A model generated the notes under the pieces. The model ran no database searches. It was not told where the DNA came from and was given only the letters and a program-made list of their open reading frames with translations. The translations under genes and the position numbers were made by a program. A DNA stretch of 64,000 nt, taken from the NCBI GenBank assembly GCA_902364065.1, contig CABJCJ010000004.1, positions 54,350-118,349 of the forward strand. Direction: 5' to 3'. The DNA comes from Veillonellaceae bacterium SB90. Its GTDB lineage: Bacteria > Bacillota > Negativicutes > Selenomonadales > Selenomonadaceae. Shown in pieces: positions 7,500 through 11,719 of this stretch (within the stretch, counting starts at the first letter, position 1; each line of letters opens with the position of its first letter).

Positions 7500-7691
7500 C
7501 ATCTTTTTTGTTTTTCTCGAATATTTGTCTATGATGTGAATCTGACTGTATGCAAATGGGATCGCTGGCATGGTAATGTATTCGATTTTGATCGTTCGTA
7601 TTCGAAAGAGAAAATCTGATTTCTGCGCGATGGGAGAAGATTTTGGTATCGTTTTATAGTATAATAGAAACTATCAGAAAGGACGATTACC

Positions 7692-9368
7692 ATGATATAC
7701 GAAAAGGAAGCCGTCATCCATGATGAGGGCGGCATCCATGCCCGCGTGGCGGCCATGATCGTGCAGCGGGCGCAGGAACTGTCGAAGCGCTACGACTGCC
7801 ATCTGTTCCTGCGCAGCGAGCGCAGTGAGCGCTGTGAGATGCACAGCCTCATGAAGCTCATCGCGCTCAAGGTCAACCGCGGCGACTCGGTCTTTGTCTC
7901 GGCCGAAGGTGACAACGGCCGGCAGGCTGTGCTTGAGATGGTGCGTTTCCTCGAAGGTGATTTCGAGATGCATGAGGCGGCGGAAATCCACGGCGTGGAC
8001 AAGCTGCTGCATGAGAACGCACTGATCCAGGAACGCCTGCAGCTGATCCTGGAGGCCGTGCAGGACGGCATCTGCGTCGTGGACCGCACGGGAGAGATCA
8101 CATACGTCAATCCCTCCTACCTGCGCATCGTGCACAAGACGCCGGAAATGGTCATCGGGCAGAACGTCTTTGAGACGGCTCCGAACGGCAACCGCTCGGG
8201 CGTACTGCGCTCGGGCGTGGCGCGCATCGGCAGCATCAGCCACAAGAAAGATGGCACGACCGTTGTCGCGAACGTCAACCCGCTGTTTGTCGACGGGGAG
8301 ATTGCCGGCGTCGTCTCGGTCATCAAGGATATCACGGAAATCCAGACTCTGATGGAACGCCTGAGCCAGGTATCGGCCAAGGCGGAATACCTCGAGCAGG
8401 AACTCCTGCGCACGAAGAAGACGGCGCAGGCTTTCTCCAATTACATCGGCAAGAGCGGCAAGGTCATCGATGTGCTGGCCCTGGCGTCCAAGGCCGCGGA
8501 TTCCGGTGCCAATGTGCTCGTGCGCGGCGAGAGCGGCACGGGCAAAGAGGTCATCGCCGAGGGCATCCACTATGCGAGCTCGCGCCGCCGCGGCCCGTTC
8601 ATCCGTGTCAACTGCGGGGCCATCCCGGGAGCCTTGCTCGAATCCGAGCTCTTCGGTCATGAAAAGGGCGCCTTCACGGGAGCCGTGCGCCGCAAGCTCG
8701 GCAAGTTTGAGCTCGCGAATCACGGGACAATTTTCCTCGACGAGATCGGCGATCTCGACAAGAACATGCAGGTCAAGCTGCTGCGCGTCATCCAGCAGAA
8801 GGAATTTGACCGCGTGGGCGGCGAGGAAACCATCCATGTCGATGTGCGCATCATTGCGGCCACGAACCGCAACCTCGAGGAAATGGTAAAGGCCGGGGAG
8901 TTCCGCGACGACCTCTACTACCGGCTCAACGTCATTCCCATCCTGCTACCGCCGCTGCGTGACCGCGTGGAGGATATCCCGCTGCTCGTCGAGCACTTCA
9001 TCGAGAAGATCAGCTCGGAGGCGCAGAAGCGCGTGCGCGGCATCACGCCGGAGGCCATGCGCATGCTCATGCATTACCGCTGGCCCGGCAATGTGCGCGA
9101 GCTCGAGAACGTCATCGAGCGCGTGATTACACTCATGGATACCGAAGAGATCAACGAAGCCGTGCTGCCTTCCTACATCAAGGGTGAGATCGCCGGGCGC
9201 GAAGTCCAGAACATCGCTGACGACACGATCCTGCCCTGGGAGGAATACGAGAAGCAGATCATCGCCAATGCTCTGCGCCAGTGCAACAGCTTCAATGCGG
9301 CGGGAAAACTCCTGCGCATCAGCCACAAGACCGTGGCCGCCAAGGCGCGGAAATACGGCTTGGTATAA
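7692..9368 (+). CDS. Sigma-54-dependent activator with N-terminal HPr domain (HPr-PAS-AAA+-Fis)
   Basis: A 558-residue enhancer-binding protein. Residues 1-88 are an HPr-like domain with GGIHARVAAM, where His16 matches the phosphorylated His15 of HPr, and a Ser in HSLMKLIALKV at the Ser46 position. A PAS domain follows (about 115-225, starting AVQDGICVVDRTGEITYVNPSY). The AAA+ domain has Walker A GESGTGKE, the sigma-54 contact loop GAFTGA and Walker B GTIFLDEIGDL. The C-terminus is a Fis helix-turn-helix (about 515-558). It lies directly upstream of ptsH-ptsI, which carry a -24/-12 promoter and repeated upstream sites, so ptsHI are the obvious targets. A -10 TATAAT lies at 7660-7665. I know of no characterised protein with this architecture. 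Confidence 0.92.
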   Translation: MIYEKEAVIHDEGGIHARVAAMIVQRAQELSKRYDCHLFLRSERSERCEMHSLMKLIALKVNRGDSVFVSAEGDNGRQAVLEMVRFLEGDFEMHEAAEIHGVDKLLHENALIQERLQLILEAVQDGICVVDRTGEITYVNPSYLRIVHKTPEMVIGQNVFETAPNGNRSGVLRSGVARIGSISHKKDGTTVVANVNPLFVDGEIAGVVSVIKDITEIQTLMERLSQVSAKAEYLEQELLRTKKTAQAFSNYIGKSGKVIDVLALASKAADSGANVLVRGESGTGKEVIAEGIHYASSRRRGPFIRVNCGAIPGALLESELFGHEKGAFTGAVRRKLGKFELANHGTIFLDEIGDLDKNMQVKLLRVIQQKEFDRVGGEETIHVDVRIIAATNRNLEEMVKAGEFRDDLYYRLNVIPILLPPLRDRVEDIPLLVEHFIEKISSEAQKRVRGITPEAMRMLMHYRWPGNVRELENVIERVITLMDTEEINEAVLPSYIKGEIAGREVQNIADDTILPWEEYEKQIIANALRQCNSFNAAGKLLRISHKTVAAKARKYGLV

Positions 9369-9369
9369 A

Positions 9370-9426
9370 TTACCAACCGTAGGAAAAGATTACCAACAAA
9401 AATCTTGATTTTGGTAAATTTTACCA
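9370..9426 (+). promoter_or_regulatory. Probable upstream activator sites for the ptsHI promoter
   Basis: TTACCAAC occurs at 9370-9377 and again at 9390-9397, followed by a perfect 7-1-7 inverted repeat TGGTAAA-T-TTTACCA at 9412-9426. These four related half-sites lie roughly 130-190 bp upstream of the -24/-12 promoter, the usual distance for a sigma-54 enhancer. They are the likely targets of the Fis domain encoded just upstream. Seen in sequence; binding is inferred. Confidence 0.7.
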
Positions 9427-9557
9427 TAACCGCAAGCGAAACGTTTGGGATAAAATTGGAACAATACCAAAGACGAAAAAAGATTTTTCCCCTTGAGCCC
9501 TTCTGCCACAAGGGTTTAGGGCAAAAATAAAATAATCTGTCCAGCAGTATAAAGAAG

Positions 9558-9574
9558 TTGGCACGCGTCTTGCA
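9558..9574 (+). promoter_or_regulatory. Sigma-54 (-24/-12) promoter of ptsHI
   Basis: TTGGCAC, five bases, then TTGCA: matches the sigma-54 consensus TGGCAC-N5-TTGC at every conserved base, with GG at 9560-9561 and GC at 9572-9573. The predicted start is near 9585, leaving an 80-base leader to ptsH. A sigma-54 activator gene immediately precedes it. Confidence 0.9.
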
Positions 9575-9665
9575 ATAATTATAAGTGCTGATTATAGACC
9601 TGTTGGAACAGGTTGGGAAACATTCAGGTTTTAGGTGTTACATTTTTAAGATTGGAGAGATTGTA

Positions 9666-9932
9666 ATGACTCAGGAAACGATCACGATTGAAAACAAGAC
9701 TGGTATCCATGCCCGCCCGGCTTCCATCTTCGTTCAGACGGCTACGAAGTTCAAGTCCAAGGTTCAGCTCCAGGCTAAAGGCAAGACGATCGATGCCAAG
9801 AGCATCCTCATGATCATGAGCATGGGCCTCGTAAAGGGCACGGAAGTCACGATCATCGCAGACGGCCCGGATGAGGCTGAAGCAGTCAAGGCTCTGAAGG
9901 ATCTCATCGCTTCCAAGTTCGGCGAAGAATAA
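9666..9932 (+). CDS. ptsH: Phosphocarrier protein HPr
   Basis: An 88-residue HPr of the phosphotransferase system. His15 in TGIHARPAS accepts the phosphate from enzyme I and passes it to sugar-specific EIIA proteins. Ser46 in AKSILMIMSMG is the residue phosphorylated by HPr kinase in Firmicutes, so carbon-catabolite control through HPr(Ser-P) is possible. I chose ATG 9666 because the domain starts there and GGAGAG lies upstream; in-frame codons before it do not look coding. ptsI follows 74 bp later. The sigma-54 promoter upstream is unusual, since ptsHI normally use the housekeeping sigma factor. Confidence 0.96.
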   Translation: MTQETITIENKTGIHARPASIFVQTATKFKSKVQLQAKGKTIDAKSILMIMSMGLVKGTEVTIIADGPDEAEAVKALKDLIASKFGEE

Positions 9933-10006
9933 TCCGTTCGGCAACAAAAAGTGGGTGGCCTTCCTCCGGACCCGGTGGAAGGCTATTTTTCAGGGGGAAA
10001 AGGAAA

Positions 10007-11719
10007 ATGTCAGAAACTATTCGTGGCAAAGGTGTCATTTCCGGTATCGCGATGGGCAAGATCATGCTCGCAGGCCAGAATCTGGACGGTTATCTGGTGA
10101 ACTATGAGCCGGAAGACAAAGAGACGGAAAAGAAAAAGGCCAAAGATGCTCTGACGGCTGTTGCGGAAGTGCTGCGCGAGAGCATCGAGAAGCTCAAGAA
10201 GCAGGACATGATGGAACAGGCTGCCATCATGGAAGCACATCGCATGATGGTGCAGGATCCGATGATGAGCGACAACATCCTCGCCAAGATCGATGAGCTC
10301 GGCAATGCTCCGCAGGGCGTGCTCAAGGCAGCTGAGGAACAGGCTCAGATGTTCGAGCAGATGGACGACGAGTATTTCGCTGCCCGTGCCGTTGACCTGC
10401 GCGATGTCGGCAAGCGCGTTGCCAAGTACATCCTCGGCGTCAAGGAACCGGAAATCGGCGACGAGAAGGTCATTCTCTGCGGTCGTGAGATCGAGCCGTC
10501 GGTTATCGCCGGCATGGAAACGGAAAAGATCGCCGGTGTACTCCTGGGCTCCGGCAGCACGACGGCACATGCCGTCATCATCGCCAAGGCCCGTGCCATT
10601 CCGACGATCGTCGGCCTCAACAAAGAGGACCGCATCGACAAGATTGCAGATGGCGATCATGTTATCATGGATGGTGAGCGCGGCGTCATCGTCATCAATC
10701 CGACGGCTGAGGAGATTTCGAGCTACGATGAGAAGATTATCAAGCAGAAGGAACTCGCTGCTCATTACGCAGCTCTCAAAGATCTGCAGGCAGTCACGAC
10801 GGATGGCGTCAAAGTTGATCTCATGGCCAACATCGGCACGCACATGGATGTCGACAATGCTCTGAACTACGGTGCAGAGGGCGTCGGCCTGTTCCGTTCC
10901 GAGTTCGTCTTCATGGGCCGTCAGGAAATCCCGACGGAGGAAGACCAGTTCAAGGCTTACAAGGAAGCTGTTGAGAAATGCCAGGGCAAGCTCTGCGTCA
11001 TTCGCACGATGGATATCGGCGGTGACAAGCCGCTGCCGTACCTCAACATCCCGACGGAGGAGAATCCGTTCCTCGGCTACCGTGCTGTCCGCATCAGCCT
11101 GCAGCGCCGCGACCTCTTCCTGCCGCAGCTCAAGGCCATCCTGCGCGCCGGTGTTTACGGCAAGGCTGCCATCATGGTCCCGATGATCATCAACGTGGCG
11201 GAGTTCAAGAAGGTCAAGGAGTTCATCGAGGAAGCCAAACTCGAGCTGACGCATGAGGGCAAGGCATACTCCGATGATGTCCAGGTGGGCATCATGGTCG
11301 AGACACCGGCTGCTGCCATCATGACGCCGGTACTCGCCAAGTACGTTGACTTCTTCTCCATCGGCACGAACGACCTCGTCCAGTACACGCTGGCCGTTGA
11401 CCGCGGCAACGCGAACATCTCCTATCTCTACAACCACTTCAACCCGGCTGTGCTGCGCCTCGTTCAGCGCACGATCACGAGCGCTCGCGAGAACGGCATC
11501 TGGGCCGGCATGTGCGGCGAGATGGCTTCGGACCCGAATGCAGCTGTCCTGCTCATGGCTATGGGCATCAGCGAGCTTTCGATGAGCGCACCGTCCATCC
11601 CGCGCGTCAAGGAGAAGATCCGCTCCATCAGCTCCGTCAAGGCCAAGGAAATCCTTGGCGAAGTCATGGCCATGGAGGATGGCGACGAGATCAAGGCTTA
11701 CCTGCAGAAGGTACTTTGA
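10007..11719 (+). CDS. ptsI: Phosphoenolpyruvate-protein phosphotransferase (enzyme I)
   Basis: A 570-residue cytoplasmic enzyme I that moves phosphate from PEP to HPr. It opens RGKGVISGIAMGK. The phosphorylated His lies in GSTTAHAVIIAKARAIPTIVG (about residue 187), with Ala and Lys at places where other enzymes I often have Gly/Ser and Arg. The PEP-binding signature DFFSIGTNDLVQYTLAVDR (about 450-470) and the catalytic Cys segment GMCGEMASDP near 502 are intact. Length equals the usual 570-575. It is second in the operon with ptsH and is followed by a terminator. No sugar-specific enzyme II gene lies in the window. Confidence 0.96.
   Translation: MSETIRGKGVISGIAMGKIMLAGQNLDGYLVNYEPEDKETEKKKAKDALTAVAEVLRESIEKLKKQDMMEQAAIMEAHRMMVQDPMMSDNILAKIDELGNAPQGVLKAAEEQAQMFEQMDDEYFAARAVDLRDVGKRVAKYILGVKEPEIGDEKVILCGREIEPSVIAGMETEKIAGVLLGSGSTTAHAVIIAKARAIPTIVGLNKEDRIDKIADGDHVIMDGERGVIVINPTAEEISSYDEKIIKQKELAAHYAALKDLQAVTTDGVKVDLMANIGTHMDVDNALNYGAEGVGLFRSEFVFMGRQEIPTEEDQFKAYKEAVEKCQGKLCVIRTMDIGGDKPLPYLNIPTEENPFLGYRAVRISLQRRDLFLPQLKAILRAGVYGKAAIMVPMIINVAEFKKVKEFIEEAKLELTHEGKAYSDDVQVGIMVETPAAAIMTPVLAKYVDFFSIGTNDLVQYTLAVDRGNANISYLYNHFNPAVLRLVQRTITSARENGIWAGMCGEMASDPNAAVLLMAMGISELSMSAPSIPRVKEKIRSISSVKAKEILGEVMAMEDGDEIKAYLQKVL

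Follow-up and report, generated by a model that had tools for sequence, protein, structure and literature searches.

Genes and sites at the locus

In a 64,000-nucleotide stretch of the Veillonellaceae bacterium SB90 genome (contig CABJCJ010000004.1 of assembly GCA_902364065.1, positions 54,350 to 118,349 of the forward strand; hereafter the window, whose own numbering is used throughout), the genes for two general proteins of the phosphoenolpyruvate (PEP)-dependent phosphotransferase system (PTS), ptsH (HPr) and ptsI (enzyme I, EI), are preceded by a gene for a sigma-54 activator that carries an HPr domain of its own (Table 1). A preliminary description of the sequence had placed HPr, PAS, AAA+ (with GAFTGA) and DNA-binding domains in one chain, which a Pfam domain search bears out, the last being a helix-turn-helix (HTH), and Pfam and TIGR matches identify the next two open reading frames (ORFs) as ptsH and ptsI. 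The TTGGCAC-N5-TTGCA element described before ptsH is present at 9558-9574, and the pattern TGGCAC-N5-TTGCW matches nowhere else in the window, both strands included. The TTACCAA repeats described upstream of it belong to a group of TTGGTA/TTACCA sites spanning 9360-9426; two of these sites are TTGGTA-N4-TTACCA dyads, and the window has no other TTGGTA-N4/5-TTACCA match. No sigma-70-like match was found on the forward strand between the regulator gene and ptsH at the thresholds used.

Table 1. Features of the regulator-ptsH-ptsI locus in window coordinates (L numbers denote related loci)
Feature	Position	Strand	Basis or remark
HPr-PAS-AAA+-HTH sigma-54 activator, 558 residues	7692..9368	+	ORF, Pfam and orthologues
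HPr domain, residues 4-88	7701..7955; His16 codon 7737-7739	+	Pfam PF00381, 57.8 bits (cut-off 23)
Single PAS, residues 114-216	8031..8339	+	Pfam PAS at 114-172, PAS_9 at 125-216
AAA+ sigma-54 interaction domain, residues 252-417	8445..8942	+	Sigma54_activat PF00158, 240.5 bits
GAFTGA, residues 326-331	8667-8684	+	sequence
C-terminal HTH, residues 517-557	9240..9362	+	HTH_50, 30.5 bits (cut-off 27)
Putative upstream activator dyad 1, TTGGTATAAATTACCA	9360..9375		overlaps regulator stop codon
Putative upstream activator half-site 2, TTACCAA	9390..9396		full dyad in L002 and L003; TACCA in 35-37/37 rows
Putative upstream activator dyad 3, TTGGTAAATTTTACCA	9411..9426		TTACCA spacings 20 and 31 bp
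-24/-12 promoter TGGCACG-N4-TTGCA, 12/12	9559..9574	+	sequence and conservation
ptsH (HPr)	9666..9932	+	PF00381, 111 bits
ptsI (enzyme I)	10007..11719	+	TIGR01417, 586 bits

The regulator has the features of a sigma-54 enhancer-binding protein, namely an AAA+ domain with GAFTGA, a C-terminal HTH, a -24/-12 promoter with upstream sites and, in relatives, an rpoN gene (16/16 genomes). Over its full length it matches a Mitsuokella sp. AF33-22 protein at 100% (rounded), which places the window in Mitsuokella or very close to it. Membership of the PRD activators was rejected for the regulator, no PRD or enzyme II (EII)-like Pfam match being found in the protein, and the NCBIfam equivalogs PrdR (467 against a cut-off of 795), NifA (385 against 529), AtoC (373 against 714) and DhaR (270 against 551) all score it below cut-off.

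Conservation of the promoter and upstream sites

Relatives came from two sources: a scan of genome contigs, which gave 56 loci, and a set of 200 genomes drawn from the class, 49 of which match the HPr part strongly (E <= 1.3e-18) and from which 20 stretches were taken; L056, where a contig end cuts the regulator, was never entered. The best -24/-12 match between regulator and next gene, with GG and GC required of every match, was scored in 71 of 76 rows (70 related loci and the window). The five rows left out are L010 (contig end), L054 (a 34-base gap and no HPr domain), L038 and L042 (regulator last in the operon, best matches 7 and 9) and L043. All 71 rows score 9/12 or better, 67 score 10 or better, 55 score 11 or better and 34 reach 12/12, and first-order resampled regions reach these four levels in 4.1%, 0.9%, 0.13% and 0.0% of cases; since the loci share ancestry, the rows are not independent. 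Eight genomes searched as a whole have 1-4 exact -24/-12 matches apiece, 21 in total versus one in a reversed control, and ptsH is among the genes so matched in 7/8.

An unanchored alignment of all 37 rows that combine a single PAS with ptsH-ptsI as next genes (hereafter ptsHI-next) has 42 of 300 window columns with one base at 90% or more. Of these columns, 21 lie in the TTGGTA/TTACCA stretch, 14 in AAGTTGGCAC/TTGC, five near the ribosome site and two elsewhere, and all ten columns of the promoter core stand at 35-37/37 rows. Absence of the -24/-12 element and repeats from relatives had been named in advance as counter-evidence; both are kept, the TTACCA sites within the clade of the window. 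Spacing was compared in 14 selected ptsHI-next loci. Five of them (the window, L002, L003, L004 and L026) have TTACCA sites separated by 20 and 31 bp, and the other nine have spacings of 31 bp (five loci), 18 and 33 bp (two) or 51 bp (two). In 13/14 loci the distance from the last TTACCA site to the -24 element is 91-149 bp, and L017 has a further TTACCA 21 bp ahead of this element. A looser dyad, TTGRTA-N4..6-TAYCAA, was found in 8/14 loci checked, which cover both the ptsHI-next kind and the kind with dha genes next (dha-next). Within whole genomes, the strict dyad occurs solely at this locus in 5/16 (G001, G002, G003, G005 and G008) and partly at it in G004 (3/4 matches), G007 (3/4) and G009 (4/6).

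Some further candidate elements were set aside. A GC-rich dyad before the -24 element looked conserved by eye in the 12 rows inspected and forms no block in the 37 rows. A small hairpin, CCTGTT-GG-AACAGG, lies in the ptsH leader at 9602-9615 and shows paired changes in some relatives; its CCTG/CAGG stem is present in about half of 18 leaders, and it was not used as a conserved element. The 18-leader alignment is anchored on the -24 element and omits the rows with an imperfect element (L016, L018, L020 and L021), and the unanchored 37-row alignment was preferred. Half-sites TTGGTA and TTACCA lie on either side of a TATAAT box and of the regulator gene's start, at 7643-7692. Among 18 upstream regions, only those of the window and L001 have the two together, and autoregulation is not claimed.

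Gene order in relatives and the link to dhaKLM

To place the regulator among its relatives, a tree was built from 72 of the 76 rows (L010, L043, L054 and L175 were left out). The regulator lies directly before ptsH-ptsI in 43 of the 72, is linked to dhaKLM in 28 and precedes dhaM-ptsH-ptsI in one. The dhaKLM-linked loci comprise 14 with dhaKLM-ptsH-ptsI, ten with dhaKLM-ptsH, two from Clostridium with dhaKLM only (L046 and L050) and two from clostridial metagenome-assembled genomes (MAGs; L038 and L042), where the regulator lies downstream of dhaKLM-EI-HPr. A -24/-12 match also precedes dhaK in dha-next loci, and related dyads are present in part of them. At the window locus no dha gene lies between regulator and ptsH. 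Gene order and promoter conservation in Selenomonadaceae, which the preliminary description had put forward as a check, agree with it: regulator, sigma-54 promoter and HPr histidine stay together in relatives. In the Fonticella locus L043, an HPr-activator precedes a gene that by eye resembles glycerol kinase, with an 11/12 -24/-12 match, and no pts or dha gene was found downstream.

Origin of the ptsHI-next arrangement

Dha-linked rows surround the Selenomonadaceae/Massilibacillus ptsHI-next clade in the tree, and the sister of this clade is L156 (dhaKLM-ptsHI; SH-aLRT 98-100, quick tree). The ptsHI-next label needs three changes on the regulator tree, and a single clade of all ptsHI-next rows was rejected (approximately unbiased test, p-AU 2e-5). 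Outside this clade, ptsHI-next loci form two more groups, one made up of Propionispora and two further genomes and the other of Orenia/Natroniella; in the latter the arrangement may be an old one and not derived. The lineage of the window is probably derived: the dha genes that once separated the regulator from ptsH-ptsI would have been lost. That dhaKLM was lost and not inserted is suggested by the nesting of the clade and by a remnant at L165. This locus, which lies on the Sporomusa side, has the order regulator, dhaM, ptsH, ptsI with the promoter kept, and the stretch after this promoter (L165:4040-4370) appears to be a remnant of the DhaK N-terminus, identical to L047 at 12/24 positions, which were chosen by eye (0/20000 shuffles). 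The L165 locus shows no DhaL, and a search of its genome found no DhaK. Because L165 belongs to another lineage, it would represent an independent partial loss of the dha operon. The window locus thus looks like a reduced dha operon, judging from comparison with relatives and beyond what the window sequence alone could show.

The regulator itself also differs in its PAS content. PAS was found in 8/8 members of the family scanned with Pfam, and 6/6 longer regulators scanned (including those from Pelosinus, Clostridium, Propionispora, Orenia and Massilibacillus) have two PAS domains; the one PAS of the window regulator aligns with the second of these. One-PAS regulators mark the Selenomonadaceae clade, which, by this alignment, has lost the first of the two PAS. 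The ptsHI-next order and a single PAS do not always go together. Other ptsHI-next lineages keep both PAS (L033, L045 and L051), and therefore dha loss and PAS loss are not tied, and the idea that losing the dha genes led to losing a PAS was rejected.

The HPr domain of the regulator

His16, which the preliminary description had found kept in the window protein, is present in 74/74 regulators, as is Arg18 (74/74), while positions 15, 17 and 19 vary; loss of this histidine from orthologues, named beforehand as counter-evidence, was not seen. These counts cover 74 of the 76 rows, L054 and L175 being left out; at L175:2011-3683 (G181) the regulator is split over two frames, by mutation or assembly error. 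The predicted structure has HPr topology with His16 just N-terminal to the first helix (17-34), and the 33 PDB sequences that match the HPr part are all HPr-family proteins. For the whole model, mean pLDDT is 77 and pTM 0.44, and the placement of domains is therefore unreliable. The 50 Foldseek matches listed for this model are all AAA+ activators and do not inform on the HPr domain.

The equivalent of Ser46 is Ser in 59/74 regulators and is absent in 15/74. Bacillus subtilis has an HPr kinase. The Pfam HPr-kinase query missed its B. subtilis control, and the search was repeated with the Natroniella HPr kinase, which matched in Propionispora, Orenia, Natroniella, Pelosinus and Clostridium brassicae and gave no match in Sporomusa malonica. 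No HPr kinase was found by either query in 13/13 Selenomonadaceae/Massilibacillus genomes, which makes serine phosphorylation unlikely there, and control through Ser46 in Selenomonadaceae was rejected.

The PTS setting

EI is encoded by a single gene, at this locus, in 15/15 ptsHI-next genomes searched. It is also single in G042, the genome of L156, and there are two in Pelosinus and Sporomusa malonica. EIIC matches were found in 18/18 genomes (3-24 each). The enzyme I match in Sporomusa acidovorans (L049:10634-11868) is broken into three, either through mutation or through an error of assembly. Sigma-54 activator domains with E below 1e-39 number 3-5 per genome in five genomes.

A second exact -24/-12 match in G001, G003 and G009 follows a PRD-type regulator and precedes mannose-type PTS genes, as judged from ORFs (L193, L196 and L186). 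In the two of these relatives scanned with Pfam (L193 and L196), the gene before the mannose-type PTS genes encodes a PRD/EIIA-man regulator. Since this second promoter precedes mannose-type PTS genes, sigma-54 seems, from the promoter matches, to serve the PTS twice in these bacteria, for the general and the mannose systems.

A proposed circuit and its alternatives

At the level of sequence, the circuit is real and conserved. Its most natural form is probably that a DhaQ-type, HPr-fused sigma-54 activator, its His16 charged by EI, drives ptsHI, as what was left after the loss of dha genes. The conserved anatomy points to the promoter and to the target of the activator: the regulator would bind the TTGGTA/TTACCA sites some 90-150 bp upstream of the -24/-12 promoter and activate ptsH-ptsI. 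From general knowledge of the PTS, PEP-charged EI would phosphorylate His16 of the HPr domain and the activator would thereby read PTS charge. Most likely the regulator is inactive when charged and active when uncharged, and EI and HPr would then rise when sugar flux drains phosphate; this sign is a guess, to which we give somewhat less than an even chance, though more than to its opposite. Tree and gene order suggest an ancestral operon, dhaK-dhaL-dhaM-ptsH-ptsI, under the same activator, and once the dha genes were lost the sole enzyme I gene of the cell would have been left under sigma-54. That the whole forms a closed loop, in which the sole EI charges the HPr domain of its own operon's sigma-54 activator so that EI/HPr supply tracks PTS charge without a sugar-specific sensor, made by deleting dha genes and keeping the control region, with direct ptsHI control in three separate Bacillota lineages, falls just short of an even bet in our estimation.

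Several observations weigh against this proposal. The main reason for doubt lies in the HPr domain, where the residue after Arg18 is never Pro (0/74 regulators) and is Val, Ile, Ala or Met instead; the Pro of HARP is present in 71/71 ptsH products of the same loci. Because the Pro that should follow His-Ala-Arg is missing, phosphotransfer competence of the regulator's HPr domain cannot be assumed. The upstream sites are not uniform, the looser dyad being absent at six of the 14 loci checked (L033, L157, L048, L050, L165 and L170) and the strict dyad not being at this locus in 8/16 genomes (G006, G010-G013, G019, G025 and G026), and the strict dyad has 43 matches over the 16 genomes versus 19 for its reversed control. 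The case for loss, not insertion, rests on a quick tree, midpoint-rooted for drawing. No terminator-like site was found in 9300-9720, and so read-through from the regulator gene into ptsH is possible. Lastly, DhaK is present in 13/25 ptsHI-next genomes, which makes a distant dha target possible.

The missing Pro, and the missing Ser46 equivalent in 15/74 regulators, would suit an HPr domain that is a docking module or relic, with the true signal bound by the PAS domain found in all eight members scanned. The active-site pair His16 and Arg18 stands against this, being invariant beside varying neighbours, and for this reason a relic is hardly likely; we regard the docking or relic explanation as a whole as improbable. 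The invariant pair is equally compatible with a positive and a negative role of phosphorylation, and the sign could be the opposite: phosphorylation of His16 would be required for activity and charged EI would promote its own synthesis. LevR activity needs HPr-dependent phosphorylation, and the PRD/EIIA-man regulators found in two relatives are LevR-like. Positive feedback on general PTS proteins would, however, need another brake, and we think this sign unlikely, if somewhat less so than a docking module or relic.

It is also conceivable that the regulator still serves dihydroxyacetone or glycerol and that ptsHI is a passenger, as the 28/72 dhaKLM-linked orthologues, the 13/25 genomes with DhaK and the DhaQ targets dhaKLM and ptsI given in Nie 2019 (PMC6615313) might suggest. 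DhaK was not found, however, in the other 12 of the 25 genomes (10/16 and 2/9; drafts and MAGs among them), a count to be read with genome completeness not given and several of the genomes being MAGs. In addition, 16 DhaK genes in six of 13 genomes (those covered by this check, with the DhaK fragment L085 left out) have neither the promoter (best match <=9/12) nor either dyad form within 500-600 bp, and single half-sites occur near some of them. Continued service to the dha pathway is accordingly the least probable of the alternatives. Transcription of ptsHI mostly by read-through from the regulator's own promoter, with the sigma-54 promoter minor, appears only slightly more probable than this and still very doubtful. 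The lack of a terminator-like site and the TATAAT box at 7660-7665 upstream of the regulator, which recurs in most of 18 upstream regions compared, are in its favour, whereas the constancy of the -24/-12 core in the unanchored alignment and the exact match at ptsH in seven of the eight genomes, each with so few exact matches, argue that the sigma-54 promoter is not minor.

Relation to known systems

The preliminary description knew of no described circuit of this kind. Its reading is supported in part, in that regulator, sigma-54 promoter and HPr histidine are kept together, and the novelty of the circuit is not supported: HPr-domain sigma-54 activators appear in Francke 2011 and a DhaQ-ptsI prediction in Nie 2019. 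In the passages that bear on the subject, Francke 2011 (PMC3162934) describes sigma-54 activators with an HPr signal domain in Clostridia, citing Reizer 1999, and Nie 2019 predicts DhaQ in Clostridiales to act on dhaKLM and ptsI (its Table 1) and counts PTS-HPr domains among those of clostridial activators. Sigma-54 control of dihydroxyacetone kinase genes in Clostridia is reported or inferred in the relevant parts of a C. beijerinckii study and a 2025 survey, and the parts seen of a PTS phylogeny paper and a dha regulon survey do not mention the regulator. The window protein belongs to the same architecture class as the HPr-domain activators of Francke 2011 and Reizer 1999, to go by those passages, in which Francke 2011 does not tie its activators to ptsHI as the sole general PTS operon. 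What appears to be new here is an HPr-fused activator before a stand-alone ptsHI; the activator class itself is already published. No account of such an activator controlling a stand-alone ptsHI was found in the literature searched, most subscription papers lying outside the search. The Reizer study, by its title, reportedly concerns PEP-dependent phosphorylation of an HPr-domain sigma-54 regulator.

DhaQ is likened to the window regulator by its predicted targets, being a sigma-54 activator with ptsI as target, and in the window ptsH-ptsI lies behind a predicted -24/-12 element; an HPr domain on DhaQ itself is not among the contents of the Nie 2019 passages. In Clostridium, the orthologues L046 and L050 lie ahead of dhaKLM, and both contain an HPr domain, by Pfam for L046 and by alignment. 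By lineage, the window regulator would qualify as DhaQ, since it is nested among dha-linked HPr-activators with L156 as sister. It differs in that its locus lacks dhaKLM, its only target seen is ptsHI and it has one PAS fewer. In the PRD activators of the LevR/CelR type, too, sigma-54 activation is coupled to PTS phosphorylation. Their PRD and EII-like domains are missing from the window protein, which has ptsHI as its target. Escherichia coli DhaR, a member of the AAA+ family, regulates dhaKLM in step with PTS phosphorylation, relayed to it by Dha subunits, and is not known to carry an HPr domain. It is therefore similar to the window regulator in family and in its link to the PTS and different in domain content, and the DhaR model scores the window protein below its cut-off. 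DhaR is, moreover, sigma-54 independent (Francke 2011, PMC3162934).

If the proposed circuit is correct, PTS sugar entry in Mitsuokella, Selenomonas and their kin, a family of bacteria common in gut and rumen, would depend on sigma-54, and the general PTS proteins would be directly controlled by their own phosphorylation state. To our knowledge, no such direct control has been described for the model PTS systems. The locus would also offer a path by which the regulator of an accessory pathway may become the controller of a core system, with the unreduced sister L156 and the independent, partly reduced L165 available for comparison.

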